Source: Viridothelium virens (lineage: Eukaryota; Ascomycota; Dothideomycetes; Trypetheliales; Trypetheliaceae). From it: 64,000 nt of DNA. A program made the position numbers and the translations under genes. The number at the start of each line of letters is the position of its first letter. The stretch's first letter is position 1. Positions 3,960 to 56,861 of this stretch are shown in pieces. The notes beneath the pieces are model-generated. The model was not told the origin of the DNA and ran no database searches. It saw only the letters and a program-made list of their open reading frames with translations. Location of the stretch: contig ML991834.1 of assembly GCA_010094025.1 (NCBI GenBank), positions 114,019 to 178,018 on the forward strand. Reading direction: 5' to 3'.

Positions 3960-4350
3960 GCACGATTAAGGAAGTATTGGAGGCTTCAGAACAATATGAC
4001 TTTCTAGTCGATTATGTACATAGTTTTCTGGGTCCTTCGTGTTACAGTATCGATACTACCTATTTCGGCAAGCGGAGCACGGCTCAATTTAAGGCGGCAG
4101 TCACCGGAGACAGAACTACCTTAGAGGCGGTCTCGTCCCTATTCGCTAGGTGTATGTAGCCCTTGGACACTGCTGGACCATCGAATGTTATCTCTCCTTC
4201 CGATTCCATGCCACTTTGGAACGGGATTGATACAACAATCAAGTTTCCCGTAACAGTTCTTAGCTACCACTTTTCCAACGTGTTAACCCACAGCCGACAT
4301 GAAAAGCCGCGCTCCAAAATTGAGGGGCCCCCAGCAAGGTGCCATTCTCC
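3960..4350. other. Convergent intergenic region
   Basis: This lies between the 3' ends of the G1-like relic and the NYN gene. A 60-codon open frame (3977-4159) is present but resembles nothing I know. The GC content and C-richness rise sharply towards 4340. Confidence 0.4.
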
Positions 4351-6201
4351 TCACATCTCCAGCAACTCCTCCGCATACGCATCCAACTCAATCACCCGAA
4401 ACTTCCCGGGCCCCCACCCCTCCACCCAGCTTCGCTTCCGCCACGCAGCGCTGATATTCCTGCTCCAGCTCACGAGCTCGACCGACCATCCCTTCTTCAA
4501 CGCCCGCTCAACCTGCCGTAGGAAGCCCTGCGAGTACTCCGCTTCAGCCGCATCGCCCGTCGCAAGCACCATAGTGCTGGGCGGGGAGTAGTCGATAACA
4601 GATTCGCAAATCTTCAGATGCAAAATCTCATCGACGCCTTGCTCGACCCATTTCGCAGCAGTCATAGTCGGGGTTTCCTCCCCCTCCCCCTCCCCCTCCT
4701 CATCATCATCACCATCCTCATCATCATCAGAAGGCAGGTCAGAGGTATGCTGACTCCGCTGCCGCCGGTGCTGCGGCGTGCCCCTCTGGCCCCTCTGTCC
4801 CCCCGGGGATTTCGCCGCCTCGAAGAACTTCTGGCGCGCCGTAAGCTCCTTCGCCTTGTGCACCTTATCCAGCACATTAAGCTCGTACCCGATACGCGCA
4901 GCCTCATCGAAGGCGGGGACGGCAGGCGTGGAGCCGGCGAGGACGCGCTTGGCGACGGGGCGGCGGCGCTCGAGCAGCAGCGCGAGGCTACCAAATGAAA
5001 GATCGACGCGCGGGACGCGTGCGGAGAGCGGAATGCCCCGCGCGCGTTTGAGCTGGTCGTGGAAGCCGATGAAGATGTTGGATGCGTCGACGAAGACGTG
5101 GATCCCGGCCGGGTCGAAGCTGTGGTTTACGAGCAGCGAGGGAGACACGAGCGTGCGTCGGTCGGCGGGGAAGTCGGCGATTAGTTTTAGGATGAGCGCC
5201 CAGTAGCGGTCTTCGCCTGTGCGGAGGGTGAGTGGTTGGATGGTTGGGCGGCGTGGTGAAACGCGAGGGAGTGACGAGTTTGGATGGGGGCCACCTGATA
5301 CTGGAGCTGGATGTAGAATCGATTGAGAGGTCTTAGGCGTTTGAAACCCCGGTTTTGGGAGGGGTTGTTTCCACCTTTGTCGCAGCTCCTGAGTGAGTTG
5401 TTCGATAGCTGATCTTCTATTATTCGCGTGCTGTTGTATAGCGGGTAACTCCGAGCCTAGAATGGCCGAATTGCTCTCGTCTCCAACGGCAGAGCAAATT
5501 CTGGGCACTTGTATTGAAGCCGGTCGGATGCCCTCAGAAGTCGACTCAGTGTTTTTCGCGTCAACAGTTCCATTTGATGTTCTTGGCCTCAAATTATACC
5601 CGTGAGTGGCGACTGGTGTTTGAGGTACAGTATTGAGCAGATGTACACTAGCTTTCTTCGCTGGCGCTCCTTTAGTCGCTCTTCGTTCAGTCTCGGAGTC
5701 TAAATCACTAATTGCTCTGACTCTATTCAGACGCTCAGATTCAGCTCTTTCCTTGCGTCTTTGCTTCTTTCTTCGGTTTCTTTCTTGCTTAGATGTAGCG
5801 GTATAGTTCTTTGAGCCTTCACTTTCTTCCAAAGTCTGCGACGCATCATAGTCATCTGTCAGATCCTTCCATTTCACCTCCTTCGTAGTATGCCGGTATA
5901 CTGCCCCGTCAGAGGCATAGTCTTCTCTTCCTGGTAGCCGGGTAAAGTCGAAGGCTTCACCAGCCGAAACGACAGGTGTTGGAGCATCTTCTGGTGCGCC
6001 TAGGTATTCCCAGAGTCTTGAAAAGTTCCCAAGACCCGTCAACGCTTCTGTATTGTCTTTCTGATGACTTGCTACCGCGTTCTTGGCAGAATCTGGGTGG
6101 ATTGGTCGCTTCTCTAAGGGCGTAGCATGCGGTGGGTCGGTGGTATTTGACAATGAGTTGACAAGATCAAAGACGTGTGAAAAATCCCAAGAGCTTGGCA
6201 T
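4351..6201 (-). CDS. NYN-domain (PIN-like) putative ribonuclease
   Basis: Uninterrupted frame of 616 residues from an ATG at 6201. The N-terminal half is polar and low in complexity, with a KKQRRKER-type basic stretch near residues 140-160, and is probably disordered. A PIN-like NYN domain starts near residue 365 with the hallmark VFVDASN. Later acidic residues lie in GVDEILHL (about 517) and ATGDAAEAEYS (about 545). Aspartates at these three places normally bind the metal in NYN nucleases. An acidic insert coded by CCT/CAT-type repeats (4680-4732) interrupts the domain. NYN proteins act on RNA, so a ribonuclease or RNA-binding role is likely, but substrate and partners are unknown. The gene runs convergent to its left neighbour. 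Confidence 0.8.
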   Translation of the reverse strand: MPSSWDFSHVFDLVNSLSNTTDPPHATPLEKRPIHPDSAKNAVASHQKDNTEALTGLGNFSRLWEYLGAPEDAPTPVVSAGEAFDFTRLPGREDYASDGAVYRHTTKEVKWKDLTDDYDASQTLEESEGSKNYTATSKQERNRRKKQRRKERAESERLNRVRAISDLDSETERRATKGAPAKKASVHLLNTVPQTPVATHGYNLRPRTSNGTVDAKNTESTSEGIRPASIQVPRICSAVGDESNSAILGSELPAIQQHANNRRSAIEQLTQELRQRWKQPLPKPGFQTPKTSQSILHPAPVSGGPHPNSSLPRVSPRRPTIQPLTLRTGEDRYWALILKLIADFPADRRTLVSPSLLVNHSFDPAGIHVFVDASNIFIGFHDQLKRARGIPLSARVPRVDLSFGSLALLLERRRPVAKRVLAGSTPAVPAFDEAARIGYELNVLDKVHKAKELTARQKFFEAAKSPGGQRGQRGTPQHRRQRSQHTSDLPSDDDEDGDDDEEGEGEGEETPTMTAAKWVEQGVDEILHLKICESVIDYSPPSTMVLATGDAAEAEYSQGFLRQVERALKKGWSVELVSWSRNISAAWRKRSWVEGWGPGKFRVIELDAYAEELLEM

Positions 6202-6792
6202 TGGGGTCGTGAAGTGAGAACATTGGCAAGAGGGTCTTCAAATGAATGACGCAAGCAACAGAGCTGCAGCGGCGACTAAGGTAAGCGTGGTAAGGTAGGT
6301 ATACACGCGGATGACATAATTGAACAGCGGCGCACCACAATTGGGGGGCCCCTCAGCAAACAAGACTGGCAGCACTGGTTATCCACCTCTTTCAAGGATA
6401 CAGTTTATTATATAGTAATTGATGGGTTAACTTATGTGTACCGCATTTTTTGTCATCCTTGTGGTATGATACGACAGGGGTGCGATAGCCCCACGTTGAT
6501 ACGCCACCACCACCGCCACGCTCTCGATCATCTTCATTAAAGTCTTTGAATGCTCAGGCATTTGTGTTTCAATTCGAGTACTTCGCTCTGACAGATCAGC
6601 TGCCAGCAATTATCATTATCATATTACGAATATTTATTCTAGATTCGAAACCCAACTCTTGGCCATAGCCCGATGTATCAACCTTGCACGTTACGTGCCA
6701 ATGTGCAACCCACTTGAAGCCACTCTGTGCTTGACCCACCATCCGATGGGCTTTTGCTTATGTTCTCGATGTCATGCAAAAATGGTATAACT
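6202..6792. other. Intergenic region, no supported gene
   Basis: AT-richer sequence between two minus-strand genes. It holds the NYN promoter (6202-6350) and the 3' region of the secreted-protein gene. The 60-codon open frame inside it has no family resemblance. Confidence 0.4.
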
Positions 6793-8739: not shown

Positions 8740-9995
8740 ATGGACTTTTGGGCTGGCTACATAAGTGGAGCCGCGGGAATCTTAATAGGCAATCCACTAG
8801 GCATGTCTCGCTGGGCGTTGTGCCCTAGTTCAGCTCGAAGTGGCCCCATTTAACTCTTATCAAGCCTTTTAGATATCATCAAAACCCGTCTCCAGGCCGG
8901 TCATAACCCTTCCCTTCTATCCGCCGATCTATCAGATCGAAAGCATCTAGCCACTAAATCTGGACTTGCCTCGCGAGCCACATATGCTTCTCTATTTCGA
9001 GGTATCTGTCGCCTTCGTTTCCTCATCCCTGGTCCCCATCCCGTTCAATTGCTTACAGATCCACACCACATCAAAACAGCAATGAATGACTGATACCAAT
9101 TCCCTGTATTCACAGGTGCCGCAGCACCTATCGCAGGTTATGGCGCCCTCAACGGCATACTGTTCTTCTCCTACAACCGCACCCTGCATCTTCTGAACTC
9201 CGCCCCCACCACTTCGTCCTCCTCTTCACCCACCCCCGACTGGAAAACCTTCCTTGCAGGTGCCATCGGCGGCCTCGCTACCTTCGTCGTCTCTGCTCCA
9301 ACCGAACTCGTCAAGTGTCGCGCCCAAACCCACATCCCCCTCAACCCAGGGGCTCCCCAGCCGAACTCCTGGACTATCACGAAGCAGCTCTGGCGCGAAG
9401 GCGGTCGATGGGGTCTTCCTGGACTGTATATCGGCGGCGGGGTGACCAGCGTCCGCGATGCGGTGGGGTATGGCTTCTAGTACGTTTTCCCAACTCATAC
9501 TCTTCAATTCTAATCTCGATCTTTCGCGCGGTTCACAAGCATCGGGTGGATCCTCATGAGGAAAACCACATATTTCATGAGATGTTCTAAAAAATTTCAA
9601 GCAAATACTGACCTTCTCCTAGCTTTTGGACCTACGACACCCTCACCACTACCCTCCACTCCCCCGCCGAATCCCCACTCCGAGCTCACCTCATCACCCT
9701 ATGGTGTGGTGGCCTCGCTGGGTGCGCCACCTGGACGAGCGTCTTTCCGCTCGACGTCGTGAAGACGCGTCTCCAGGCGCAGGCTACCCAATTATCCACC
9801 ATATCATCTATCGAGGAGTCCCATGGACAGCCATTGCAACGCCCGAGCGCTTGGGCGGTCGGGCGAGTAGTGTGGCAGCAAGGAGGCTGGGCGGGGTTTT
9901 GGAGAGGGCTTGGGGTGTGCAACGTGCGGGCGTTCGTCGTGAATGCTGTGCAGTGGTCTGTGTATGAGAGCGCGATGCGCATGTTAGCGTCGTGA
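8740..9995 (+). CDS. Mitochondrial carrier family (SLC25) transporter
   Basis: Four exons: 8740-8800, 8873-9001, 9116-9479 and 9623-9995. The protein has the three repeats of the inner-membrane carrier family, each with a P-x-[DE]-x-x-[KR] signature: PLDIIKTRLQ across the first intron, PTELVKCRAQ in the middle, PLDVVKTRLQ in the last. The C-terminal block WRGLGVCNVRAFVVNAVQ resembles ornithine and carnitine/acylcarnitine carriers more than ADP/ATP carriers, but the substrate cannot be fixed. The start ATG leads directly into the first transmembrane helix, so there is no presequence, as usual. The first intron (8801-8872) begins with GC rather than GT; the GC donor is required to restore the conserved PLD. 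Confidence 0.88.
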
Positions 9996-10497
9996 TTAGT
10001 AGATACGGATCTGACTGATCAGTCAGAGAGAAAATTCAGTTTTCATTAGCATTCTGATCTGATGTGTGCTACATGGTGTAGACCTCGGTATAAAATTACA
10101 GAAAAAGGAAATTTTTTGGTGGACCGCCGCCTGTCCCGAATCCGTGAGAAATTCCATGTAGTGTACCCTATGATGGAGAGCAACCGCAGCAAGTGGGGAA
10201 ACCAGAGAAAAAGATTGGCGCAAAAGGGAGTGCATTCGTCGATCTGAGCTGAGTATGATGTCCAAACGTTCGTAACACTCGAGAGAAGTCAAGCTAGCGA
10301 GAAGAGAAAAGGCATGGACTCCCGTAACTCTAAACTAGGGTCGGGGTTCAGTCTTGAACACTCAGAAGGCAACCGCACATCGTTGAGGAGAGTCTGGAAG
10401 TGAGCTTGAACCAAGGTGAGAGTTCAAACATCCGTCCGTACTCAGGATGGCAGATCGAGTCGAGAGAAGGCCGAAGCCCGATTCCTGGTTGTTTTGC
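9996..10497. other. Convergent intergenic region
   Basis: The 3' regions of the carrier (plus) and the Gbp2-like gene (minus). I see no gene here. Confidence 0.5.
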
Positions 10498-15824: not shown

Positions 15825-16183
15825 ATGCAGATCAAGTAAGCTTCTTTCCCTCCCTCCCTCCCCGCATTAACTCTTTCTGACAATGCCACCTCTAGGGTTC
15901 GCACTCTCACCGGCAAAGAGATTGAGTTAGACATCGAACCCGACTACAAGGTACATCACTCTTCGCCCGTGCATCCCCAAACCGCGCAGGCTATTGACGT
16001 AGCTTGACACAGGTCTCCCGCATAAAGGAGCGAGTCGAGGAGAAAGAAGGTATCCCGCCCGTACAACAACGTCTCATCTTCGGTGGAAAACAGATGGCGG
16101 ATGATAAGACGGCGGAGGAATATGGCCTCGAGGGCGGAGCGACGTTGCATCTGGTCTTGGCACTGCGTGGTGGCTACGCTTGA
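15825..16183 (+). CDS. RUB1: NEDD8 / Rub1 ubiquitin-like modifier
   Basis: Three exons: 15825-15835, 15896-15950 and 16013-16183, giving a ubiquitin-fold protein of about 78 residues starting [18 protein letters not shown]. The tail reads LVLALRGG followed by Tyr-Ala. Alanine four residues before the di-glycine marks NEDD8, where ubiquitin has arginine. The two residues after Gly-Gly must be removed by a processing protease before activation by the Ula1-Uba3 E1. The mature protein is attached to cullins and so activates cullin-RING ubiquitin ligases. Intron 1 contains a TCCC run (15848-15863). Confidence 0.95.
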
Positions 16184-18171: not shown

Positions 18172-19379
18172 ATGCCATCATACACATATGGGCCGGTGAG
18201 GCCGGCTGAAGAAGGTTCGAAGCTCTGGCTTTGTTGCAGACGTTACATATGCTCACCAAATTTCTAGATGCACTCCACTACGAGCGTTTGATGGGCGTAG
18301 AAGAGAAGCACTTCAAGAGAATCACCAAACGTCTCCTCGACTCCCAGTCCCTCATATCTCCCACCGCCTCACTTCCCACCCCACCGCCCGACGCTTCCAC
18401 CAACGACGACGACACCTCCGCCAACACCACCGAGAACAACATCCGCCAATGGCGCGAAGACATGCTCCTCGACTTCTCCACCATCGAAGCCAGCCTCATC
18501 CGGCTGCAACTCCTCCAACGCAGCAACCACCACGAACGCGAGCGCTATGCCCGTGAAAACGAGCACATCCAGCAGACCGCCTCCACCGTGCGCACCAGCA
18601 CCGCGACGCTCCGCCTCGAGCTCGCCGACGCGCAGCACACGCTCGAGACGCGCAAGGTGTACGACGCGCTCGCGGACAAGATCACGAGCAACAAGGCGCT
18701 GAAGCCGCGCGCGGAGCAGCATGCCAGCCTCGCGAAGCTGCAGGCGGAGATTGCGGAGCTGGATCGTGAGAGTAAGGAGTATGCGCGTACGTGGCGGGAG
18801 CGGAGGGAGCAGTTTGGCAGGATTGTGGAGGAGTGTCGCCAGTTGTTGAGCTTGATTAGGGATGAGAAGGAGGAGGCGGAGAGGAAGGAGGGGATGGATG
18901 GGGGCGCTGCGGGGGATGAGCATGAGGATGGGGTGGGGAGTGGAGAGGGAAGCCGGAATGCCACGCCGAGACTTGAGGGGGGTACGCCGCGGCTAGAGGG
19001 AGGAGCCACGCCGGGGTTGGATGTGGGTGCGGCGACGCCTTCGCAGAGCGGACATCTTACGCCGTTGCAAAAGCCAATGCCGAGTAGTCGGAGTAGGTTG
19101 GTGGAGGGATCGTCGGCAGCATCGAGCAGCCGGTTGTCCTCTCCTGGTAGACAAGAGCAGGATCAACACGTCAGTGATAATGCTGATGCTGGGATGGGGG
19201 AGGTTTCAGAAAGAGAGGGAAACGGAACACCAGCGGTCGATACGGAAATGGAGGAGGGAGAAGAAGGAGAGGAAGGAGAGGAAAGGGAGGAAAGGAGAGA
19301 CGCGGAGGACGGGGAGAATCAGCAGGACAAAGCAGAGCTGGACATCAATGGGCAGGCCGAAGTCATGGACGAAAGCTGA
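18172..19379 (+). CDS. THO complex subunit 7 (Thoc7/Mft1-like)
   Basis: Two exons, 18172-18195 and 18240-19379, joined by a 44-nt intron. The first gives MPSYTYGP; the second continues with TLHMLTKFLDALHYERLM and VEEKHFKRITKRLL. The N-terminal block, the ERLMGVEEK-type motif and the following coiled coil (about residues 70-230, heptad-rich and highly charged) fit the Tho7/Mft1 family. Its members are structural subunits of THO/TREX, which couples transcription to mRNA export and prevents R-loops. The C-terminal 150 residues are acidic and low in complexity, with GGTPRLEGG-type repeats and Glu-Glu runs. Confidence 0.8.
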
Positions 19380-20182
19380 GTGTCTTGTGTCATTGAATTC
19401 ATACTTTGGATTTTTTACTCAATTAGATGTGTTTGCTAGAAAGCTTTAAGCAGCTATAAATCTGTCCGGCTCAAGGAATGTCAAGATTATGCATATATAA
19501 TCTAACCACTGCCATCGATTTGTTTTGGCTTTGCAAAAGGTGCGTTTGTTGTGCTCTCGACTTCGGATAATAATATGTGGGTGAGTGCAGCGGAGTCGTT
19601 CTGCAGAAGGCAGTGCCAAAAGAGAGCAAGGGCGCTCTGCGGAGTACGGAGTATAGTTTGTTTAAACGACTGGCTGACGGAATTAGCTTATGTTCGTGAT
19701 AGCGTCGATTCCGATCCTTGTGTTGCTTGAGATCGGAGATCCGGAGGAGCTGGGGGACCGAACAATAGATCTGTTGCATCATCTATCTTTTTGTTCCTGC
19801 AGCTCTCGCGCCTCGGCAAACAAGCTATAATCCGACAGCCTGCTTTATTGAATCAGCCAAACCTTTCAATTCCATAAACTCCACCGGGCAGCGCCATGGA
19901 GTTCAGTGCAAATACTGAGTGTCTTGGCTGATGTCATCCAACAGCTTCGCTTCATTGAACTTTCACATCTGTAAGACAGCCCTGCCATTCACTCGCCCTT
20001 CACGTCGTTTAATCCACGTGCTTTTCCCATACATGTTTTTTCATCTCAGATCTACTGCTGACTGAGACTCCCAACAACAGATTGACGCTTGCACGCTAAG
20101 GATCCTCCAAACGTAAACGACTCCTGCCACCCCAGCTGCCTCTATAAAATCTACGGTCGACCTCTACATCTTCCGAGCCACA
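19380..20182. other. Intergenic region THO7 - sterol acyltransferase
   Basis: About 800 bp of non-coding sequence with no supported gene. It contains the motif TACGGAGTA at 19645-19653 and, near the right end, a pyrimidine-rich leader typical of fungal promoters. Confidence 0.4.
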
Positions 20183-22409
20183 ATGGAAGAATTATCTCAA
20201 GCTCAAAGACCTTCTCTACATGCCAATGACACTCTTGATCGCGCTCCTCGCCTCGCTGGACAAATATCTCGAGATGGAATCGCGAACCTCGACATCGACA
20301 AAGCAAACGGCAACATCAGTCTCGACGTCCCCATAGGCACGACTCCCGACGCCGGCAGCTCCAACCCAAGCGCCGCCGAATCCATCGTCTCAGACGACGA
20401 AGACTACGACACCATGAAGATCGACCCAGACGTCCTCGTGCGCGCCGCCAAAGGCATTCCCGGTCGCCAAGCTTCTGCATCTTCCTCGTCGTCCGCCTCT
20501 GCTGCTGGCGATGAGAAACAACAGCAGAATGGCGATGCACGGAAGACGGAAAAGTCGTCGAGCCTGCAGGTCAGACTCGAGAAGACGGGTCGGAGGGGCA
20601 GATACAAGCTCACGGCCGACGACCCTCAGATCCGAGACATCATTCGGCGCGGGCTGGAGCGAGAGGCGGCGCTGGACTCGCGCAAGCAGCGGTCGAGACT
20701 CCGGGATATTATCTTCACGCGGCAGTTTACGACGTTCGACCGGCAGAATCCAGCGACGGCGGACTCGCCTTTCTTCGGCTTTTTTACGTTGTTCTGGCTC
20801 TGCTTGATCGGGATGCTCGTGCGGGTGGCGATGTATAACTGGAAGATGTATGGGAGTGTGGTTGGCAAGCAAGATATGGTCAAGATGATGTTTGATCGGG
20901 ATGTTCTGGTCCTGGGCTTGACAGATGGAGCCTTATGCGGAGCAACTGCCGTTGGGTTGGGATTGCAAAAATTGATTCTCAAAGGTTACCTAGACTGGAA
21001 TAGATCGGGCTGGATTATTCAGAACATTTGGCAGGCGGTTTACCTCGCGGCTGCTATTGGCTTCACACAATACAGGGAATGGCCGTGGACGCACACGATT
21101 TTCGTAGTACTGCATTCAATGGTGTTTCTGATGAAGCAGCACAGTTATGCTTTTTACAATGGCTATTGTGAGAACAGAGGCCCCTCTCCTTTACCCTGCG
21201 AGCTGACAATTCCTTAGTATCTTCGTTGTTTAAACGGCGCAATGCACTCGAAGAAAAGCTAGACCAATTAGAGGACATGGAACCTGATTCTGCTGCTAGT
21301 CCACCAGTCTCACCTACTCTTCGCAAGCAAGATACTTCGATGACTACTTCATCTTCAGTTGATCAAAAGACGAACGACGTGCATAGAAGGCGAAGATCTT
21401 CCGGCCACCATTTCTTCAGCGAGAAATCGGAAGTCGCTAGCGTAGCAGCAGCGCTTGAATCGGGAAGATCTCTCGATCTAAACCAAATGCACGCATTCAA
21501 AGAGATCATCAAGGCGGAAATTGACAGTTTGAGTGAGGAATTGAAAGGAAAAGCTACGAGCGAAGCGAATGCCTATCCCAAAAATCTCACCCTCTCTAAC
21601 TTCGCAGACTGGACGTGTCTCCCTACGCTTGTTTATGAGCTGGAGTACCCCCGACAAGACAAGATCAACTGGTGGTACGTTGTCGAGAAAACGGCCGCGA
21701 CGTTTGGATGCATTGGCGTCATGATGGTGATTAGCCAGGCCTACCTCTATCCACCCATGGCGGAGACGGTGAGGATGAAAGAAGCTGGTGTCACGATACA
21801 CCAACGCATGGAGGAGTTCCCATGGATATTAGGCGATATGCTATTTCCATTACTTCTGGAGCAGCTTCTAACGTGGTACGTAATATGGGTAAGCTTGACC
21901 ACATACGTAACTCTTCACGTTTCTTGGCCGCTGATAGTCTTCAGGAATGCGTACTTAACGTCTTGGCGGAGCTTACGTGCTTTGCGGATCGTGGCTTCTA
22001 TGGTGCCTGGTGGAATAGCGTGTGAGTGAATGTCGCACAAATCAGTAGTACAGCTAGCTGATTTGCAAGAAGATCCTGGGACGAATACGCTCGAGACTGG
22101 AATCGACCAGTCCATAACTTTCTTCTTCGTCACGTCTACCGCTCCTCCATCTCGGCTTTCCACGTCAGCAAAGGAACGGCCACGTTCATCACCTTCTTTA
22201 TTTCGGCATGTGTCCACGAGCTTGTCATGGCTTGTCTGTTTCGAAAAGTTCGAGGATATCTTTTTACTATGCAGCTCCTACAGGTCCCGCTAGTAAGTCT
22301 AAGCAGAACTAAGCTACTCAAAGGCAGGGTGATTTTGGGGAACGTGATTTTCTGGATTGGGCTTTTCGTTGGGCCCAGCTTCTTGACGAGCTTATATTTG
22401 ATTTTGTGA
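20183..22409 (+). CDS. ARE2: Sterol O-acyltransferase (ACAT/ARE family, MBOAT)
   Basis: Four exons: 20183-21167, 21218-21888, 21945-22021 and 22073-22409, giving 689 residues. A disordered N-terminus of about 180 residues precedes the MBOAT core, which has many membrane spans. Family blocks seen are FTTFDRQNPATADSPFFGFF, MKQHSYAFYNGYLSSL, EYPRQDKINWWYVVEK, ADRGFYGAWWNS (about residue 569) and SACVHELVMA with the catalytic histidine near residue 626. The enzyme esterifies ergosterol with fatty acyl-CoA in the ER for storage in lipid droplets. In the conserved FYxDWWN motif the aspartate is replaced by alanine. The symbol is by family; ARE1 and ARE2 cannot be told apart here. Confidence 0.9.
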
Positions 22410-25065: not shown

Positions 25066-25260
25066 CGGACTGGGTCGGGAAAGGAGATTGGAGCTGCGAT
25101 GCAGTATGGGAGAGAGGTTCTGAACAACATGACTTGAGGAGTTGGAGAGGTGCGGACAAGTCATTCGTATGGTATAGCTAGCTGGCTCTTGCCTTTACCC
25201 TTTGGTCCCATTTTTGTTTCACAAAAAATTCAAGATATACCAATTTCATTCGAACTCTAA

Positions 25261-29463: not shown

Positions 29464-29757
29464 AAAAAATAGGAATCAACATTGCGAAGACGTCTCTACA
29501 ATCAACGCTTATTTGATTGAGGCATAGTGCTGTTTTCACTCCACCAGAGCTGCGATAGCCTAGAGATATATTTGCTGTATCTCCAGGGAAGGGTCTCTGG
29601 TAATATCTATCAATCAATCGTACAAACTTCAGATTAACCTGCTGAAAATAAGGACATCAGACCTCCCTCCCAATACCACAACGCCGAACGATGACAAGTC
29701 CATAGCATATTCAGCACATTCCTCGGGAGTGGCACTCCAGCGTCATCGATTCCTACT

Positions 29758-33081: not shown

Positions 33082-33197
33082 GTTTTCTGGCGCGCTCTAG
33101 CGCGATCTCGACGCTAAAGCGAGAAATTGCCCCGCCAATGACGCACCCAAACAAATCTTCATGTGCAGAGTCCTGCAATTGGTATCATCGCACAATC

Positions 33198-39387: not shown

Positions 39388-39966
39388 GGTGCGCCTTAGC
39401 AGTACGAAGGCATTTAAACCTCACTAGTCTCCTCTGACAAACTCGTCAATTACTCGCGAGAGTGATTTTGTTTTCTGCATTTTAATTGTTCGGCGGCAAG
39501 ATATCTGGATGGTCTCAATTACCTGGCGTGGAGTCTGGAGTGAATTGTTTTGGAAGCATGTGGATGGTTTCGTTATCCATATCAATCTAGCAGTCATGTA
39601 TAGAAATTGAAGCACTTTCGAACCTCTGACTCAATGTCTTTAGTTGTTTATAATACTTTCAGCGACTACAAAATCTGCAGGTGCGTAAGGTTGAGGACCT
39701 ATCTTCTCATGTCAAATGACGGGAATCTGGTATACAGGGATTGGGGTAGTCAGCTGCAAGAGCCGGGCGTGATGACCGCATCGGCAGTCCGGCGGAAGCT
39801 CCGATCTCGCGCCTTACAAAGTTCATTGTCGTGCCTGCGAACAATGTAAGCATAATTTGCCGAACGCAACCAAATCCGTTTCTGACATTTGGCTGGCTCC
39901 TCGCCGTGGCTCATGGCGCGAGGAAGTTTCAGCAATCAATCCGCCCAATTATTTGGGTAGCCAATC
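39388..39966. other. Intergenic region
   Basis: The 3' end of the DUF7702-type gene and the promoter of the POT1-like gene. I see no gene here. Confidence 0.5.
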
Positions 39967-42900: not shown

Positions 42901-44781
42901 AATGACGGTTTGCCTGAAGAAAATATGAGAGAAGTGATCAATGATGCACCGACTCATCAACCGAGCTCGTCTCACCCCGGAGTTGAGATTATTGGTGAGA
43001 CTCAGGTGAACAACCTGCAGAATCTACTAGGTCACCCCATGACACCTGATAAAAGCCAACGCAGTGTTTCCGATTTGCAGCCAATACAGGAAAATGGTTC
43101 TTTAGACCAAGCGAGCACAGCAGTTCTGCCACCTACCCCACGATTAACGCAGCCCAGCCAAGACGTTTCCTCCGGTATTTCTTCACAGTCTTTTGCTCCA
43201 CCAGCGGTCAAGCAAAAAGCGACCACTCGCAGATCTACTCGGCTTTCATCAACTCCGGAAGCTACGACGCAACCCTCCCAGGAAAGTGAGCGTCCCTCTT
43301 CGCCCTCGTCTCAAAGAACACAAACGTCACTACGGCGCTCTGCTCGGATCTCATCGTCCATGACACCACGACCACGTACACCTGAAAGGCAAATAACATC
43401 ATCGATATCTCCACCATCCACAAAGAAGACACCAACGCGTCGCTCCGAACGCCTCTCATCAAGTCCCGCGCAAACAATGCGTGATGGCCCGCTCCCCACT
43501 TCTTCCTCACCAACGCCCTCACTTGCGACATCAGCCACAGACAAAACACCTACCCGCCGTTCAGAACGCGTCCGCCAGCGCCAGGTGCCCCGAGTCAGCG
43601 AGGTACCAGAAGTCCTGACTCCGTGGTTTGGCCCTCGTCGCTCTAGCAAAGCCCAAGGGCGCACCACCGCTGCCACACCCGCTCACCTCCCCCGAGGCGC
43701 CATCATCTCTGAAAGGGGCGAAGTCATCGTTCCTGACAGCGAAGAAACCGGGACTTCAAACACCGCAACCTCGCCCTCTGCCTCCCACACCCACGACACC
43801 CCTCCCAGGTCTTCGCGCACAACCTCCACCACCACTGGCAAATCAGCTCCGGACCGCGCTTCCGCCGCCGCTGCTGCTACACGACAAAGCAAACCTAAAC
43901 CCAAACCCGAACCCAAAAACTCCCGCCCCCCAACCTCGTCTCTCCTCTCCCAAGACCCCACCCTCGGCATCCGCACCCCCCACGCCTACTACACGCCCCT
44001 CTCCACCCTCCCCACGCTCCTCAACCCCTCCTCCTCGAACCCAGCTTCCCCACCAACCTACTCCATCCTCGCCCTCGCCGCCTCCGCGTCTTCCCCACCA
44101 CAGCGCGCCAAATCCGGCCCGCGCGACTGGTTCACGGAGTTCAGCGTCTGCGACCACTTGCTACGTCCGCGGGGTGAGAGCGTGCGGGCGAGGGTATTTC
44201 GGCCGTATAAGAGCGCGTTGCCGGCGGTGGGGAGGGGCGAGGCGGTGCTGTTGAGGGGGTTTGAGGTTAAGGGCCGGAAGGGCGGCGTCGAGCTTGTGAG
44301 TGGGGAGGGGAGTGGGTGGGTGGTGTGGAGGATGGGTTTGGGGAGAGGGAGTGGTAGTGGGAGTGGGAGTGGGAGTGGGGGCGGGAGCGGGAAGAGAGTG
44401 AGTGCAAGGAAGGCGGAGGGGAGACAGGGAGAGGGGGAGGATGGGGGTGAGGGGACGGTTTGGGCGAGGAGGAGGACGGAGAATGGGTTTGTGGTTTGGG
44501 AAGAGGAAGGCTGGGATGTGTTGGGGAGGGAGGAGATGAAGGGGCCGCCGGTGGAGTTTGGTGAGGAGGAAAGGGAGGTTGTGCGGGCGTTGAGGGAATG
44601 GTGGGTTCAGGAGGTATTGGATGAGGCGGACCAGGAGGGGGGTGAAGAGGGGAGTGAGGAAGGGGGAGATGGAGAGGCTGGCGAGTCGAAGCATGGACGA
44701 AAAAAAGGAAATGAGAGAGAGAAGAACGGAACTGTGGTGCACGAGCTCCGAGATGGTTCAGTGTATCGAGACGGGGTTTGA
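39967..44781 (+). CDS. Large POT1/Cdc13-type telomeric single-strand DNA-binding protein
   Basis: One uninterrupted frame of 1604 residues. The first 130 residues read as an OB fold (FKGVVTLVWPYSSSTGQLSL, VHFHGSSAKAVARSGIGIGD). A second OB-like domain lies at about 1335-1500 (TPLSTLPTLLN, WFTEFSVCDHLLRP, RVFRPYKSALPAVGRGEAVL). The roughly 1200 residues between are acidic, Ser/Pro-rich and clearly disordered, with SDSD-like runs, two similar PLPSPFP blocks (about 400 and 450) and four RRSxR motifs at about 1085-1200. Fungal proteins of this build are annotated as telomeric single-strand DNA-binding POT1/Cdc13. The telomere role is family inference. A Gly-Ser repeat near residue 1460 and a charged C-terminus follow. 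Confidence 0.75.
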   Translation: MEALPIASLAPSLPSVDAKSFKGVVTLVWPYSSSTGQLSLLIAEQDFRLRRNKGQVRVHFHGSSAKAVARSGIGIGDVVIVGLEGVQWVQEAGDHVNTPGKSVDWELRYGQRLVLYARREEKQLADINVDDPTPTPQHELSKPYENGYVNGDVRDTDAKTPARKNGFSVTPAAWASPAFLRRARVSSGTLIDSPYDPFTEQDGFLEGRASKRRKQWHEITQWKLADNPLSPGKDLPWEDMEIEDEDGDEDEDSPEGTQSQVAVFESPLSESRPASADVSPGPVMRNTDVHDFAFGPRRSDNEASPCATAEPVPIAQERPIISIQTALQQANAAFDAFPKPSESVFQSQTNETVGSMPPPLLPNALETKPQILSPGPLSGELAKPQTPKLTAVPSSALPLPSPFPTQDQSQFPFPLASSSQEFLPSPLTKGPPDFARPKTPELNPVSSWNLPLPSPFPAEGQNEPNKFLENLQLANEQWSSLEASQRPAGSSSDQASQISLQPDKDYTWKPGEPIHFQPQNEVPATSSETEHEKVPAMDVAMQPDVLEQSSAVAEEPSDGSRLSPLFKLSNLDDTPVQVDEADFRVSPSAERHSKLGSIIQGEEEREDEQTGPLTPTPIPGSSPNKLQLQYRGDTPSDVIEILSEEELSDNELENEDIDMGEEDVVDFNEDEESNQNGGLVEVEQVKLEEEGDEDSDELVEPLEESEEDLESSPLPEEQSFPTYEDDSNEEVSPGRELESPGSGPSEEATSSSEIAEAKQYSRQEAGTPSQDEPQITDSVAYPSLDSQQFDPVAQRTKMNFPFGLDGSILSDPVPRGDNGTIAFVERKEIDEMDLEDETDTRRSDGIDTSSPRQTTYVFEDESGEEQVSYRHAGSSSPLASENILADEESAPLPISQHANDQLVGEFESSQENLDDEETATPLAIPQSTIIDLGVSSDAEEVNEEAAKASGQGQPSFGQPLKEQEFLGISADSGTGPDENDGLPEENMREVINDAPTHQPSSSHPGVEIIGETQVNNLQNLLGHPMTPDKSQRSVSDLQPIQENGSLDQASTAVLPPTPRLTQPSQDVSSGISSQSFAPPAVKQKATTRRSTRLSSTPEATTQPSQESERPSSPSSQRTQTSLRRSARISSSMTPRPRTPERQITSSISPPSTKKTPTRRSERLSSSPAQTMRDGPLPTSSSPTPSLATSATDKTPTRRSERVRQRQVPRVSEVPEVLTPWFGPRRSSKAQGRTTAATPAHLPRGAIISERGEVIVPDSEETGTSNTATSPSASHTHDTPPRSSRTTSTTTGKSAPDRASAAAAATRQSKPKPKPEPKNSRPPTSSLLSQDPTLGIRTPHAYYTPLSTLPTLLNPSSSNPASPPTYSILALAASASSPPQRAKSGPRDWFTEFSVCDHLLRPRGESVRARVFRPYKSALPAVGRGEAVLLRGFEVKGRKGGVELVSGEGSGWVVWRMGLGRGSGSGSGSGSGGGSGKRVSARKAEGRQGEGEDGGEGTVWARRRTENGFVVWEEEGWDVLGREEMKGPPVEFGEEEREVVRALREWWVQEVLDEADQEGGEEGSEEGGDGEAGESKHGRKKGNEREKNGTVVHELRDGSVYRDGV

Positions 44782-45035
44782 GTCTTCGTATGTGGTATCA
44801 TCTAACCCAGTCGCGGACTTGCGGCTTCACTGTAGGCATAGCGTTGAGCAGCTTACTGCAAGAATATGCCTAGTGGCATTATTATATATCCAGTTCAAAT
44901 CTGAAATGCTTCTTTGATTTATCGAAAATCATCGGATATACGCTACACCCTTGCCTTCCACTGTATTTCATTTTTTCGACACCTTCGCCGTGTCCCACAG
45001 CTCGTGTTCATGATCGATGACAATTAACACTGCCT

Positions 45036-46361: not shown

Positions 46362-49300
46362 ATGCGTTCTAGCAATGGTCCCTTCAATTGGACAGCTGTC
46401 TTCCTGTTTCTGAGCTGTCTTTACACTCTCTTTACACCGGCTTGTATGATTGACGCTTATGGTGTACGGATCTTCACAAGCTAATCAGATCCCGCAGTAA
46501 CGGTCAAAAAGCAAGATTTCAAAACCTGCGATCAATCCGGGTTCTGTAAACGCAATCGCGCCTATTCAGATACTGCTATAAGCCAATCCTCATCCTGGAC
46601 TTCACCCTACACTCTCGACGCTCAGTCAATTGCCTTCAAAGGTGGCCAGCTGACCGGGATTGTCCTAAAAAATCTCCCTCAAAGCGGAGAAAATCTCCGT
46701 CTACCTCTAACAATCAATTTTCTCGAGTCCGGTCTTGCTCGCGTGTCTATTGACGAAGAAAAGCGTCAGAAAGGAGAAATTGAGTTACGTCATGGCAGCA
46801 AAGCCCGTAAGGAACGGTACAATGAGGCAGAGAAATGGGCTATAGTGGGAGGACAACAACTCAGTAAGGGGGCAGCAGTGAGCAAGGACTCAGAAGAGGG
46901 GACGACAAAAGTTCTGTACGGTCCAGCAAGTGGATATGAAGCTATCATTCGGCATAGACCATTCGTTATTGACTTCAAACGTGATGGAGAGACTCACATT
47001 CAATTCAATGAGCGTGGATTGCTAAATGTTGAACACTGGCGACCAAAGATTGAGAAGGAGCCACCGAAAGAAGGGGAAGAAAATAAAGCTGAAGAGGAAC
47101 AAAAGATTGTCGACCCCGCCGAAGATGAGAGCACCTGGTGGGAAGAGACTTTTGGCGGAAACACCGACTCGAAGCCTAAGGGTCCTGAGAGCGTGGCACT
47201 CGACGTCTCTTTTCCAGGATATGAACACGTTTATGGCGTACCAGAACACACTGGACCACTGTCTCTTTTGCAGACCCGAGGTGGTGAAGGCAATCACGAC
47301 GATCCCTACAGACTATATAACTCTGATGTCTTCGAATATGAAATGGACAGCCCCATGACACTATATGGAGCCATTCCATTCATGCAAGCTCATAGGGCTG
47401 GTTCCACTGTCGGTGTTCTATGGCTTAATGCGGCGGAGACTTGGATTGATATCGTCAAATCCAAACTCTCTGCGAACCCTTTAAGTCTTGGCATTAAGGG
47501 CACGACGACCACACAAACTCACTGGTTCTCTGAAGCTGGTATTCTCGATGTATTTGTCTTTCTGGGACCTACACCACAAGCAATCTCCAAATCCTACGGC
47601 GAGCTCACAGGATATACGCAGCTCCCACAACAGTTTGCCATTGCCTATCACCAATGTCGTTGGAACTACGTCACCGATGAAGACGTCAAAGACGTTGACC
47701 GCAAGTTCGACAAGCATAGCATTCCCTACGATGTCATCTGGCTTGATATTGAGTACACCGAGGAAAAGAAATATTTCACTTGGGATGGTATGACCTTCCC
47801 TGATCCGCTTGGGATGCAGAAGCAACTCGATGAACATGAACGCAAACTCGTCGCCATCATCGATCCACACATCAAGAACACGGCCAACTACTGGGTCAAG
47901 GACGAGCTCGTCTCCAAAGATCTCGCCATCAAGAACAAAGACGGCAACATCTGGGACGGCTGGTGCTGGCCCGGCTCCTCCTACTGGGTCGACTGTTTCA
48001 ACCCCGCCGCCATCGAATGGTGGAAATCGCTCTTCACCTACGACCGCTTCAAAGGCTCCGCGCGCAACCTCTTCATCTGGAACGACATGAACGAGCCATC
48101 CGTCTTCAACGGGCCCGAGACCACGTCCCCGAAAGACAACATGCACCACGGCAACTGGGAGCACCGCGACCTGCACAACATCAACGGCCTCACCTTCGTC
48201 AACGCCACCTACGCCGCGACACTGCAACGCTCGAAATCCGAAGCGCCGCAGCGTCCCTTCATCCTCACGCGCAGCTTCTACGCCGGCTCGCAGCGCATGG
48301 GCGCCATGTGGACGGGCGACAACCAGGCCCTGTGGTCGCACCTCAAAGCCTCCCTCCCCATGGTCCTCAACAACGGCGTCTCGGGCTTTCCGTTCGCGGG
48401 CGCCGACGTCGGCGGCTTCTTCGGCAACCCGGAGAAGGACCTCCTGGTGCGCTGGTACCAGGCGGGCGCCTTCTACCCGTTCTTCCGCGCCCATGCGCAT
48501 ATTGATACGAGGAGGCGCGAGCCGTATCTAGCGGGGAGCCCGTATCGTGAGATTATCACAAAGGCGTTGAGGCTGAGGTATGCGCTGCTGCCCAGCTGGT
48601 ATACGGCGTTTCGCGAGGCGCATACCGAGGGCTGGCCGATTGTGAGGCCGAATTGGTGGGTTCATCCGAGTGATCCGGCGGGATTTGCGCTCGATAAGCA
48701 GATGTATTTGGGGAGTACGGGGTTGTTGGTTGCGCCGGTGCTGGAGGAGGGCGCGACGAGCGTGGACGTCTATCTTGCGGATGAGACGCCGTATTATGAC
48801 TACTGGGACTTTGAGCTCGTCAAGGGGCGTGGGATGCATACGCTGGATGCACCGCTGGAGAAGCTCCCGCTGCTGATGCGCGCTGGGCATGTCTTTCCGA
48901 GGCGGGATCGCCCACGGAGGAGCAGTGGGCTCATGCGGTATGACCCGTTCACGCTCGTTGTGGTGCTGGGAACCGATGCACAAGGGGCGGAGGGAACGCT
49001 GTACCTCGACGACGGCGAGTCATTCGATTATGAGCAGGGGGCTTTTATCCATCGGAAGTTTACGTATGATGCTGCCACACAAATCCTACGATCGGAGGAT
49101 ATCGGCGAAAAGGGCAAGAAGAGCGACGCGTACGCGATGAGTATGCAGGGAGTGAGAGTGGAGCGGGTGATTGTAGTAGGGGCGCCGGCAGAGTGGAAGG
49201 GGAAGGAAGAGGTGGATGTGGCGGAAGAGGGAGCGAAGGCAAGTGCTGGGACGAGAAAGGTGGATTGTGTATTCCATGAGGCGAGTGGGAAAAAAGCAGC

Positions 49301-49391
49301 ATGGGCGGTGGTACGAGATCCAAGGGTGGAAATTGGAAAGGGTTGGAAGATTGATTTTTCGAGTGGGGCCAGGGACAAGAAAGAATTGTAA
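46362..49391 (+). CDS. ROT2: Glucosidase II alpha subunit (GH31), ER glycoprotein processing
   Basis: Two exons, 46362-46443 and 46498-49391, giving 991 residues. A signal-anchor-like N-terminus (WTAVFLFLSCLYTLF) is followed by VKKQDFKTCDQSGFCKRNR, the conserved start of mature glucosidase II alpha. In the GH31 barrel the nucleophile aspartate lies in IWNDMNEPS (about residue 557), the acid/base aspartate in TGDNQALW (about 635). The ALDVSFPGYEHVYGVPEH block is also typical. The enzyme trims the two inner alpha-1,3-glucoses from N-glycans in the ER and works with a separate beta subunit. Base use switches from C-rich to G-rich near 48490. Confidence 0.95.
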
Positions 49392-51624: not shown

Positions 51625-51627
51625 TAC

Positions 51628-52084: not shown

Positions 52085-55000
52085 ATGGCGCTGAATGCGG
52101 CATCACATAGCGTCATCGTATGTTCAATCACTACCAGTGCTCCTATCTCATCTGTCTTGGGTTTCATATCTAAAATTTCGATTTCTCTAGAGCAACAAAG
52201 CCGCACCTATCAACCCCGCAACCCCTCCTGTTGACTCCGACACCAATTCCGTCCTTGCCTCCATCAATGCCGATCCCACAGGCCAAAATGCGCCCGGCCG
52301 CGATGGTGGTGGGAAGGGCATAGACAGGAAGGTAAAGACCGAGAAGGAGCTCGAGAAGGAGCGGAAGAAAGCAGAAAAAGATGCCAAGTTTAAGACGAAA
52401 AAGGCAGCGCAAGCTGTAGCAAGCGGCGACAAGGGCGGTGAGAAGAAAGGAAAAAAGAAGGTCGACGAGGAGCAGCTTGGTGAATACGTTGAGGAGACCA
52501 AGAAAGGCGGGAAGAAGATCCTTAAGCCACTGGACAGTAGTCCCTTCACCAAGGCGTATGTCCCAAAGGTCGTAGAGTCTGCTTGGAACGACTGGTGGGA
52601 CAAAGAAGGCTTCTACAGACCCGAGTACAATGTTGAGCATCGCAGCGAACTTGCCAAGAAGAAGGGTAATTTCACAATACCCATTCCCCCACCCAACGTC
52701 ACCGGGAAACTTCACTGTGGCCACGCGCTCGCCACTGCGCTCCAGGACGTTCTTATCCGATGGCATCGTATGCAAGGCTACCAGACCCTTTACCTCCCGG
52801 GTTGCGATCATGCCGGTATCTCTACCCAATCCGTCGTAGAGAAAATGCTTTGGCGCCGCCAGAAGAAGACACGATATGATCTTGGTCGACCGAAGTTCTT
52901 GGAGACGGTCATGGAGTGGAAGAACGATCATCACGACTGGATTGTGTCTGTGTTAAAGCGCATGGGTGGCTCGTTTGACTGGACGAGGGAGGCCTTTACG
53001 ATGGATGAGAATTTATCGACCGCTGTTATAGAGACTTTCGTTTGGCTACACGAGGAAGGACTTATATATCGGTCAAACCGGCTAGTCAACTGGTGTACGC
53101 AGCTGAACACTGCCTTGTCAAATCTTGAAGTCGACAACAAGGAAATTTCTGGCCGTACTCTGCTTGATGTTCCCGGCTATGAGCGCAAGGTCGAGTTTGG
53201 TGTTCTCACGTCTTTCAAATACCCGATCGACGGCAAGAAGGGCGAGTATATCACCGTCGCAACAACCAGACCGGAAACGATGCTCGGTGATACTGCGATC
53301 GCTGTCCACCCTAATGATGATCGATACAAGCACCTCATTAAGACCGGTGCTAAGGCGAAACATCCCTTCCTCGACAGGCTCCTACCTATCATCGCCGATA
53401 ACTATGTTGACTCAGCGTTTGGTACGGGTGCCGTTAAGATTACACCTGCTCACGACCCCAACGATTTCGCCATCGGAAAACGCCACAATCTCGAGTTCAT
53501 CAATATTCTGACAGATGATGGCTGCCTCAATCACAATGGAGGCCCCTTCAAAGGTCAAAAGCGCTTCGATGCAAGATCTTCTGTTGTTGACAAACTGATG
53601 GAACTGGGGCTCTTTGTTAAGAAGGAGGATAACGCGATGAAAATTCCTCTGTGCAACAAGTGTGGGGATATTATCGAACCCCTCCAGAAGCCTCAATGGT
53701 GGATGAAAATGAAGGAGCTGAGTAAGCCCGCTATTCAAGTTGTCAAGGACGGCGAGATTAAGATACGGCCGGAGACCTCTGAGCGTGCGTATTACCAATG
53801 GATGGGGAACATTAACGATTGGTGCCTGTCTAGACAGCTCTGGTGGGGTCACCAAATCCCAGCTTACTTTGTCAGGATCCAGGGCAGAGACGATGATTCT
53901 TCCGACAACGAGCTTTGGGTTACTGGACGTACTTTAGAAGAGGCTACAAAGAAGGCTGAAGATAAGTTCCAGGGGGAAAAATTCACCCTCGAACGGGACG
54001 AGGATGTTCTCGACACTTGGTTTAGCTCGGGCCTATGGCCTTTTAGTACTCTTGGGTGGCCAAAGGAAACAAATAATTTGGAAGAGTTTTTTCCTACCTC
54101 TGTTCTGGAGACTGGCTGGGATATTTTGCCATTTTGGGTTGCCCGGATGATTTTCCTCAGTTTGAAGTTGACAGGAAAGATTCCTTTTAAGGAAGTATAT
54201 TGTCACTCCTTGATCCGTGATTCTGAAGGCCGTAAAATGAGCAAGTCCCTCGGTAACGTTGTTGATCCTATCGATATTATGACGGGTATCAGCCTCCAGG
54301 AACTTAAGGATAAGTTACGCATTGGCAACCTCGATCCTAAAGAGCTTAAAACCGCCGAGAAGTATCAGAATACTGCGTTCCCGCAGGGAATTCCCCAATG
54401 TGGCGCCGATGCACTGCGCATGGCTCTCTGCGCCTACACAACTGGAGGTGGGGATATCTCGTTTGACATTAGCGTCATCCACGGCTATCGCAAATTCTGT
54501 AACAAAATCTACCAAGCGACCAAGTACGTCCTCGGGAGGTTAGGCGAATTCACGCCGAGCAACACGGTTCAGAAGACGGGCAAAGAGAGCTTGTCTGAGC
54601 GGTGGATATTGCACAAGCTGGCAACCGCGTCGAAAGAGACCAACGAGCATTTGACGGTGAGGGATTTCTCTTTGGCCACTCAAGTTGGCTACAAATACTT
54701 CTTGAATAACCTCTGCGATGTTTTCATCGAGAACTCGAAAGCGATCCTGGAACATGGCAGCGCCGAACAGAAGGAGAGCGCCAAACAAACTCTTTACACT
54801 GCACTCGAAGGCGGTCTCCTTTTACTCCACCCTTTTATGCCATTCTTGACGGAGGAGCTCTTCCAACGCATTCCTCGCCGTCAAGACGATAGGACCCCGT
54901 CGATCACCGTAGCCAACTTCCCAGAATTCGCCACCCTCAAGGTCTTCCATAATCCGTGGGCCGAGAAGGAGTACGACTTGCTCGTCGATGTCTCAAAGGG

Positions 55001-55457
55001 TCTTCGCTCTCTCACGGCCGAGTACGCAATCAAAGACTCCGCGCAAACCTTCGTCCACCCGCTAGACGACACCACCCACTCCATCCTCCAAGCTCCGACT
55101 TCCCGCTCCTCGATTCTCTCTCTAAGCGGCAAGGCCATCAGCTCGCTCACTCTTCTCGCCCCCTCCGACCCCTCCCCCACCGGCTCCGCAGTGTACACCG
55201 TCGGCACGTCGGCAACCGTGTACCTCGACATCAAGGGCCGGATCGACATCGACAAGGAGATTGTGAAAGCGAAGGATCGACTCAAGAAGGCGAACGAAAC
55301 GGTCGAGAGACAGCGCAAGATCATGGACGAGAGTTGGAAGGCGAAGGTTAGTGAGGCTGTCAAAGAAACGGAGCGGGAGAGGTTGCGCGTGGCGGAGCTA
55401 GAGAGCGGCAATTTCGGAAAGAGTATTACGCAGTTTGAAAATTTGAAGATTGCATAG
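52085..55457 (+). CDS. VAS1: Valyl-tRNA synthetase
   Basis: Two exons, 52085-52117 and 52191-55457, giving 1099 residues. The second exon is certain; the first (MALNAASHSVI, good Kozak context) is the most likely start. A Lys/Glu-rich N-terminal extension (about residues 40-120) precedes the class Ia core. The HIGH-type motif is HCGHA near residue 186 and KMSKS lies near 693. GCDHAGISTQ, the editing-domain TTRPETMLGDTAIAVHPND and WCLSRQLWWGHQIPAY are all class-typical. A C-terminal coiled coil (DKEIVKAKDRLKKANETVER) closes the protein. Fungal VAS1 usually serves both cytosol and mitochondria through alternative starts; no clear presequence was found here. Confidence 0.95.
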
Positions 55458-56861
55458 AGTTCCGGGAAGGGGTATTTAGAAGATTGTAATTGGGGGCAGC
55501 CAGGGTGGAGGTTTATACATGTAGCCCGTTTCGCACATGTGGAACAGACGAGAGGTAACAGTTCGAATTGATGGTTGCTTATCGGGAGTGAACTAAGGTA
55601 TTCCCCAACTAATCGGGCAAGAGAGCTTAGGGTCTCAGGCACAGAAGGCTCTGTAAGGGATTTTTTCAGAGGTAGAGTAATGGCTGGATCAATATCGCAA
55701 ACTCCGTGAAAATGGTAGCCCCAATAGCTCCCAAGCTTAATTCTCTCTCGGAAACCCATGAAATGGGCCGACGATCCGCAAGGTCAGTAATACTCATTTC
55801 CTGACTCTGCATACTGCTCAGGAAAAGAGACAGTCTTGACTCTCCGGATCAGAATTAGGTATCGGACATTGGCGTCTTCGCATCTCAACACCTATTACAC
55901 TTCCCGCAACGCTTCAAGTTCCAAGACAGGATAAGAATAACGAAATCAAGAATCATTAAATTCTACCCGCACACGTACAGTATATTATAAAGTCTCATAA
56001 TTGGTCGAAAGAGAAGTTGTGTAGACCTAGTTGAGGGTGAGTGCGGAGGTGTCAATTGCTGATACGATACTTAATTTTGACCCTGAGAGGCTGGACAGTC
56101 CGCCCCTAGAGTAGCAGTTTACTGGGTCACCGTTCATTATATACGAAATCATAAAGAGAAGTCTGGACGGGAACCTTAGGTGCTTACCAGGTGAACGGCT
56201 AGGTACCCTGGAAGGGGCTGACTCAGCGCCTGGACTTACTATAGGGTACTACGTGTAGGTACCTAGCCTAGGTAGATAGTCAGTAAAGCATACCTTACCT
56301 TACCCTACCTCTTAATCAGAGCAGACACGAAATTCATAACGATACGGAAAGACACTTCTTGATAAAGTTCATAGTCACCAGCCTATAGCAGGAACGAATC
56401 GGCAGCCCTCGCTGTGAGTAGTGGCAACATTATGCGATCAAGTGCCAACTCATTTGCTGCTATAACTGCTCACTAGTTTCTCACAGCCGTCCACTAGGGG
56501 GTGGAGAAATGAGTGTCTGCCACTAGTCGTATGTTAAAACATCAATAGTCGTGAATTGACAGGGTCTATAGGTTGCATCATCCGTGAGTTGATGCGGAAA
56601 AGGGGTAGAGTAGCTCTTGTGCGGAGGGGTTAACAGGCTGCCCGACATCTGTTTCTTCAACCCCTGGTGCGTCAATACGCATGCTTGCATGGCTACTGTA
56701 TGGCCAGCAGCCATAAGGCAACGAGCAGCTAGGTCCCCGTCCATACAGTTGCCAGCAGGGCATAAGCTGAGGGACTGTACTAATAAATAGGAAGATGTAG
56801 CGTCTCCTCGCGCACTTCATCTTTTGCTTCGTTTCTACACCTATCACGGATCATAATCAGG
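55458..56861. other. Repeat-like intergenic region
   Basis: About 1.4 kb with no supported gene. The stretch 56190-56320 is built from short related words of the type AGGTACCTAG, CCTAGG and TACCTTACC. The right part is the promoter of the HET gene. Confidence 0.4.

Follow-up and report, generated by a model that had tools for sequence, protein, structure and literature searches.

The final 64 kb of a 178-kb contig of Viridothelium virens (ML991834.1, positions 114,019 to 178,018; assembly GCA_010094025.1), a fungus which we take to be lichen-forming, carries a series of points at which the plus strand switches from C-rich to G-rich (Table 1). This stretch, hereafter the window, was read closely together with 180 kb from three contigs, i.e. 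244 kb in all, while pattern counts were made over the whole assembly (30.7 Mb, 175 contigs). A jump is the difference in (G-C)/(G+C) between the 300-bp flanks of a position; open reading frames (ORFs) stand in for genes, and ORF starts are a proxy for true transcription starts. Eleven switch points had been listed in an earlier, sequence-only reading of the window, among which eight come out clearly, with jumps of 0.59 to 1.31, and three are weak (20500, 34285 and 48500, with 0.38 to 0.47). Four further jumps of 0.57 to 0.66, at 15980, 17370, 50210 and 52300, were absent from that list and are not GC-rich.

Table 1. Switch points and arms in the window (window coordinates; C-rich and G-rich refer to the plus strand).
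Feature	Extent	Jump	GC content or GC peak	Gene context
Switch ~4910	4290..5310 (outer limits approximate)	0.59	GC 0.64	Inside minus-strand ORF 4354-6237
Switch ~9850	9100..10400 (outer limits approximate)	0.64	GC 0.53	Outside any ORF of at least 200 amino acids
Switch ~18640	18305..19425	0.88		THOC7-like gene, plus strand, ORF 18210-19376
Weak switch ~20500		0.38	GC peak 20530	Plus-strand ORF 20117..21214
Switch ~24490	24090..25150	0.61		Calponin-homology-domain gene, plus strand
Switch ~28640, C-rich arm	28055..28640	1.14		Utp18-like WD40 gene, plus strand, ORF 27475-29460
Switch ~28640, G-rich arm	28640..29150			Utp18-like WD40 gene, plus strand
Switch ~30120, C-rich arm	29610..30120	1.12		3' end of MCM4-like gene, minus strand
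Switch ~30120, G-rich arm	30120..30655			MCM4-like gene, minus strand
Weak switch 34285-34480		0.39 at 34285	GC peak 34430	Minus-strand ORF 34210..35376
Switch ~44170, C-rich arm	43060..44170	1.31 (strongest in the window)		POT1-like gene, plus strand, ORF 39961-44778
Switch ~44170, G-rich arm	44170..44805			POT1-like gene, plus strand
Weak switch ~48500		0.47	GC 0.63; GC peak 48250	Glycoside hydrolase family 31 ORF 46485..49388, plus strand
Switch ~55230	54820..55665	0.78		Near 3' end of valyl-tRNA-synthetase (ValRS) gene, ORF end 55454

The switches at 28640 and 30120, both strong, lie 1.5 kb apart in the convergent Utp18-like and MCM4-like genes, the latter with an exon junction at 30398/30342 and a stop near 29760. 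At 24490, the arm measurement gave no left arm, while the skew profile shows one from 24090. The POT1-like product gives a Pfam match under the cut-off, PF02765 being carried by its homologues.

Upward jumps, i.e. from C-rich to G-rich, prevail wherever the change is strong or the sequence GC-rich. With a null obtained by shuffling 60-bp blocks, about 2.4 jumps of at least 0.6 are expected in each direction, with a maximum of 6, when the 244 kb hold 31 upward and 15 downward. At the lower threshold of 0.5, both directions are equally frequent (43 each; 12 upward and 13 downward in the window alone), and it would be wrong to state that sharp changes from G-rich to C-rich, which the sequence-only reading had not noticed, do not occur. 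In windows with a GC content of at least 0.55, 26 jumps of at least 0.5 are upward and 2 downward; the parity of both directions that this reading had regarded as fatal to the pattern is found at 0.5 and gone there, as well as among jumps of at least 0.7 (19 upward, 5 downward). Since 32 of the 43 downward jumps sit 200 to 900 bp from an upward one, as compared to 10 and at most 20 under random placement, most of them are the outer ends of arms. Among the 27 GC peaks of the 244 kb (600 bp at a GC content of 0.59 or more, picked ignoring skew), 23 have a jump above +0.3, none lies below -0.3, one is at 0.00 and none is downward. The peak at 0.00, at 13850, belongs to a region of the window (12400-14000) with a GC content of 0.55 to 0.61 and a long positive skew, with no switch at this peak.

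The C-then-G pattern is real and genome-wide. Over the whole genome, CCTCNCC...GGNGAGG outnumbers its reversed order by 77 to 61 at gaps of 40-70 bp, 243 to 95 at 150-180 bp, 728 to 122 at 300-330 bp and 824 to 133 at 470-500 bp, pairs of a C-word followed by a G-word being about six times commoner than the reversed order at 300-500 bp; for CCTCC...GGTGG at gaps of 150-180 bp, the counts are 3674 and 2496 (both strands summed). Strong sites, defined by a jump of 0.6 together with a GC content of 0.55 or 0.56, occur about every 12 kb (20 sites over the 244 kb), which would make some 2500 if extrapolated; weaker sites were excluded ahead of the arm statistics.

Averaged over 19 strong sites, the GC content rises from 0.50 to a central value of 0.66, the left arm peaking at C 0.49 and the right arm at G 0.50; A and T drop in parallel, which leaves an AT skew of about zero (0.03 for A against T). 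In gene orientation, the median arm spans 460 bp upstream and 435 bp downstream (n=19, one side being unmeasurable at three of the sites). When both arms are folded onto the strand that runs 5' to 3' towards the centre, the share of C at four-fold degenerate sites is 0.53 to 0.61 at 0-500 bp, 0.36 at 500-700 bp and back to a baseline of 0.24 at 700-1000 bp; C and G together make up 0.70 to 0.78 within 400 bp vs. 0.48 at 700-1000 bp. The share of C in the arms depends moderately on neighbouring bases, ranging from 0.53 to 0.67 with the 5' neighbour and from 0.47 to 0.69 with the 3' neighbour. At the 20 refined centres, no shared word beyond GC-richness was apparent by eye, no formal motif test having been run.

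These dimensions bear on replication origins with divergent forks, which would leave G-rich leading strands on either side and thus the very sign of jump observed, and which the sequence-only reading had offered as a first option. Origins fit poorly, because the skew is short, having vanished by 700-1000 bp, far below the scale of a replicon, because the AT skew is absent and because the GC content climbs steeply towards the centre; this option is held here to be quite improbable.

The polarity on the plus strand is identical in genes of either direction: at four-fold sites, plus-strand ORFs have C 0.62 and G 0.14 on the left, then G 0.57 and C 0.20, and minus-strand ORFs C 0.70 and G 0.09, then G 0.52 and C 0.19. 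The 21 GC peaks located inside ORFs are distributed over both strands (12 plus, 9 minus). As the sequence-only reading had stated, third codon positions follow the arm, the skew there exceeding that of positions 1 and 2 in each of the four comparisons (two arms by two gene strands), and, far from vanishing at synonymous sites, which that reading had named as a refutation, it is strongest at four-fold sites. The four-fold skew exceeds that of positions 1 and 2 except in the right arm of plus-strand genes, where it is nearly equal to position 1 (0.49 vs. 0.48). Selection on codons or amino acids, with stretches rich in Pro, Ser and Thr followed by stretches rich in Gly and Glu near C-termini, could be argued from homologues of the Utp18-like, MCM4-like and POT1-like proteins outside Trypetheliales, which have an amino-acid contrast of the same sign, but it is largely refuted by the four-fold sites. 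Besides, the skew runs past the ValRS stop codon, which is supported by a comparison with the PDB, and into 3' stretches in which the gene strand has no open frame, where it amounts to 0.51 at 200-300 bp and 0.26 to 0.27 at 300-500 bp, with none beyond; as a full account of the arms, such selection is hardly credible. The same two observations led to the rejection of arms bounded by the gene or its stop codon, although some G-rich arms do end near a stop.

While the pattern ignores gene direction in its sign, as had been proposed, it is not randomly placed in genes. The median distance to an ORF 3' end is 318 bp for 20 jump sites vs. 1045 bp expected (p 0.0005); the tendency is weaker for the 27 GC peaks (558 vs. 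1029 bp, p 0.016), and for the 21 peaks within ORFs the figures are 357 and 718 bp (p 0.007). No enrichment of sites was found at ORF 5' ends, for jump sites or for GC peaks. Two-way transcription from cryptic intragenic promoters, each arm acquiring its skew from R-loops or transcription-coupled repair, would put G-rich non-template strands on both arms with the right sign, and GC-rich promoters with GC skew are known in mammals. Unlike such R-loop or CpG-island promoters, the sites here are not enriched at ORF 5' ends, the G-rich arm has no consistent T excess over the C-rich arm, and the GC content goes up instead of down, all of which makes this explanation highly improbable.

The spectrum of the bias is dominated by a single letter. 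On the strand running 5' to 3' towards the centre, the 1756 four-fold sites located 100 to 450 bp out have C 0.58, A 0.14, T 0.15 and G 0.13. Raising C alone improves the fit by 460.6 log units relative to the baseline, and a free G term leaves this gain unchanged, the fitted effects being 1.48 for C and 0.01 for G, when a strand-symmetric model of GC-biased gene conversion (gBGC) gains only 195.9. Two-letter asymmetries against the rest were rejected, with 176.6 log units for A+C and 186.2 for C+T. Because the sites had been chosen by skew, detection was repeated with third positions of ORFs of at least 250 amino acids masked; in four settings comprising 21 to 77 sites, the C effect is 0.70 to 1.19 and the G effect -0.04 to 0.08, with a gain of at most 2.2 log units for the G term. 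The control at downward jumps, masked likewise, gives a mirror excess, with G at +0.47 to +0.51, in three settings and no mirror excess in the GC-rich setting (11 sites, G +0.10); an excess of this kind is what arm edges would give. The safe statement for the arms is that C comes first, G being about equal to A and T or under them. As with gBGC, the GC content rises locally at presumed recombination sites and most at silent sites; in contrast to gBGC, which favours G and C alike, only C gains at 100-450 bp and the two sides are mirrored.

A bias that is strand-resolved and mirrored over about 450 bp on both sides of a point is what would be expected if something acted on the two 3'-ended strands at a meiotic break. 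In a proposal to which we give slightly less than an even chance, the switch points would be long-lived meiotic recombination hotspots, with a conversion or repair process that prefers C on the 3'-ended strand. Spo11 would cut at or near the switch, and resection would expose some 450 nt of single strand on each side, namely the top strand to the left of the cut and the bottom strand to its right. These 3'-ended strands would pair with the homologue and mismatches would be settled in such a way that C beats A, T and G, possibly under a rule by which mismatches carrying C on the invading strand tend to escape correction, whereas those that set a G against this strand are repaired towards the donor and yield C. 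Over generations, the 3'-ended strand would gain C, with the rise in GC content largely as a by-product. As the 3'-ended strand would grow C-rich on either side of the break, the plus strand would become C-rich then G-rich whatever the direction of the gene. The position, sign and length of the arms, their C-dominated four-fold spectrum and their closeness to ORF 3' ends are observed; the break, the resected strand and a biased repair or mismatch rule are what we infer. Closer than 100 bp to the centre, A and T reach their minimum, G is at its baseline share and C is high, which fits with scattered cut positions. A recombination-linked bias, which the sequence-only reading had mentioned as another option, is the better fit and the best reading available, albeit unproven.

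A Spo11-type gene is present in the assembly, with several exons and a TP6A_N match of 54.4 bits. On another contig, one HORMA-domain match of 91.5 bits contains six internal stops. In Zymoseptoria tritici, which belongs to the same class, 2578 hotspots were mapped, of which 1435 are exonic, and the vicinity of transcription starts is not significantly enriched (PMC5844332); the extrapolated number of some 2500 sites is of the same order and counts in favour of meiotic hotspots. In fission yeast, C-C mismatches often evade canonical mismatch repair, while a short-patch pathway also repairs them (PMC4154643); to extend such escape to C-A and C-T mismatches is a step of our own. Mismatch resolution after a break can also be strand-directed (PMC9001825).

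The main rival to conversion keeps the break hotspots and dispenses with any conversion bias: error-prone repair synthesis or single-strand damage would make mutation to C more frequent on the 3'-facing strand and mutation to G on the other. The C-dominated spectrum and the tract-like arms suit it, and a one-letter spectrum would come from a polymerase such as Rev1, which inserts dCMP. A polymerase that inserts C and simply filled in the gap would, against this, enrich the opposite strand. Human hotspots are flanked by strand-asymmetric mutation (PMC7615360), which speaks for this rival, but the asymmetry described there is, as read, opposite in sign. We hold such a mutation bias to be unlikely as the source of the arms.

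Several observations weigh against biased conversion at meiotic breaks. Firstly, the C-only rule is inexact with distance, the free G term being +0.81 (gain 24.6 log units) at 0-100 bp, +0.29 (3.7) at 100-250 bp and -0.34 (3.9) at 250-450 bp; next to the centre, G does gain over A and T, for which mixing of the two strands there might account. Outside ORFs, the skew decays sooner (C 0.34 vs. 0.61 at 300-400 bp) and takes another form, with C raised, G clearly lowered and A and T less altered. Searching for C-runs returned 12 places in the genome, 8 loci of which were examined and 7 are distinct, two lying in stretches already analysed; a G-rich arm follows on the 3' side in six of these seven, weakly in one (L004), and is missing at L007. 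The latter is a long C-rich stretch on contig C52, with skew down to -0.84 and no clear G-rich partner arm within 1.2 kb. Hop2 (PF07106) and Mnd1 (PF03962) gave no match in exon-by-exon searches of the assembly, which does not imply their absence. Regarding the literature, the type of mismatch is reported to have little influence on its resolution (PMC9001825), which weakens a mismatch rule, and GC-biased conversion in Zymoseptoria is extremely weak or nil (PMC5844332). At human hotspots, the excess among new forward-strand mutations is of C>N and A>N (PMC7615360); as we read it, the 3'-ended strand would thereby lose C, contrary to what is observed here.

Homologous proteins raise a further difficulty. 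For Utp18 and MCM4, the window protein was aligned with 26 sequences hand-picked among the 120 matches listed (1349 found for Utp18 and 1637 for MCM4), and for the POT1-like protein 9 of 23 matches were used, one of which (P0002) has no region past the switch. At the Utp18 and MCM4 sites, and likewise at the POT1-like site, the contrast in amino acids between left and right is found with the same sign outside Trypetheliales; because outgroup proteins already show it, part of this contrast is older or protein-driven. In the amino-acid index of the G-rich arm, the four Trypetheliales score higher than the remaining 23 rows of each alignment, with p 0.001 for Utp18 and 0.003 for MCM4 (from rounded values, uncorrected for kinship). 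In the C-rich arm of Utp18, the changes of the window protein at conserved columns run contrary to the proposal, with 9 to C-coded and 13 to G-coded residues, and the contrast of this arm in Bathelium is weaker than in the outgroups. Dating the bias from proteins gave a mixed answer. Within the order, the Utp18 homologue of Bathelium mastoideum (P0147) differs at 44 of 88 conserved columns along the C-rich arm, the three other Trypetheliales rows differing at 16 to 22 of 90, a difference explicable by a shifted gene model or by rapid change. Proteins of Trypethelium subeluteriae are 91% (Utp18) and 96% (MCM4) identical to those of the window, and a protein from the Trypethelium eluteriae assembly matches its window counterpart at 99%, with 36% of the query region covered, and at 100% in the alignment.

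The sequence-only reading knew of no described element of this kind, which holds in part. Smagulova and colleagues are said to have found in 2011 that nucleotide skew switches polarity at the centres of mouse meiotic hotspots, a resemblance that concerns the change at the centre, hotspot status being presumed here. The mouse skew reportedly appears in averages, whereas jumps at single sites here exceed 1, in fungal coding sequence, and are read without a break map. Human meiotic breaks are flanked by asymmetries of several substitution types over about 2 kb (PMC7615360), when here C gains over about 450 bp. Zymoseptoria offers exonic hotspots in similar number within the same fungal class, but gBGC is weak or absent, the word 'skew' does not occur in the main text and a preference for gene 3' ends goes unmentioned in the passages available (PMC5844332). 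In Arabidopsis and birds, breaks or recombination also lie near transcription termination sites (PMC6237102), although in nucleosome-depleted, AT-rich DNA outside genes or at both of their ends, while the present sites are GC-rich, intragenic and at the 3' side only. Among titles and opening lines of abstracts on hotspot skew, fungal GC skew and biased conversion, asymmetry at meiotic breaks, fungal hotspots, and Spo11 and GC skew, no description of the pattern was found; in two papers on gerbils, 'GC skew' designates GC richness in the excerpts available. Hotspot skew that switches polarity is reportedly known in the mouse, then, and it is its C-only form within fungal genes that these titles and abstract openings do not describe.

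Should meiotic hotspots be the right reading, the mismatch, the strand and the end concerned in biased conversion would become testable with base composition as the only data, since each strand is represented by its own arm, and break maps would be obtained for fungi that are hard to cross. Hotspots would lie near gene 3' ends and not at promoters, and would be stable for long enough to reshape synonymous sites. A broader concept, the 'C drive', holds that conversion at meiotic breaks is strand-directed and biased to C only, that nearly every strong GC peak here is a break site and that GC enrichment of the gBGC type is the strand-averaged shadow of a one-strand rule of mismatch-repair chemistry; it seems to us doubtful, but if true, a genome sequence alone would give break positions, tract lengths and strand. 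Even if the cause turned out to be non-meiotic, a mirror-symmetric and mainly one-letter bias at nearly all GC peaks of 244 kb calls for an explanation.

Last, 5 of the 9 tandem-repeat rows of the window, corresponding to three arrays, fall on the arms of three switches (28280-28347, 44298-44392 and 19251-19299), which suggests repeat expansion in arms; the repeat units found there include CCCGCTCCT, GAGTGGGGAGGG and GAGGAAGGA.

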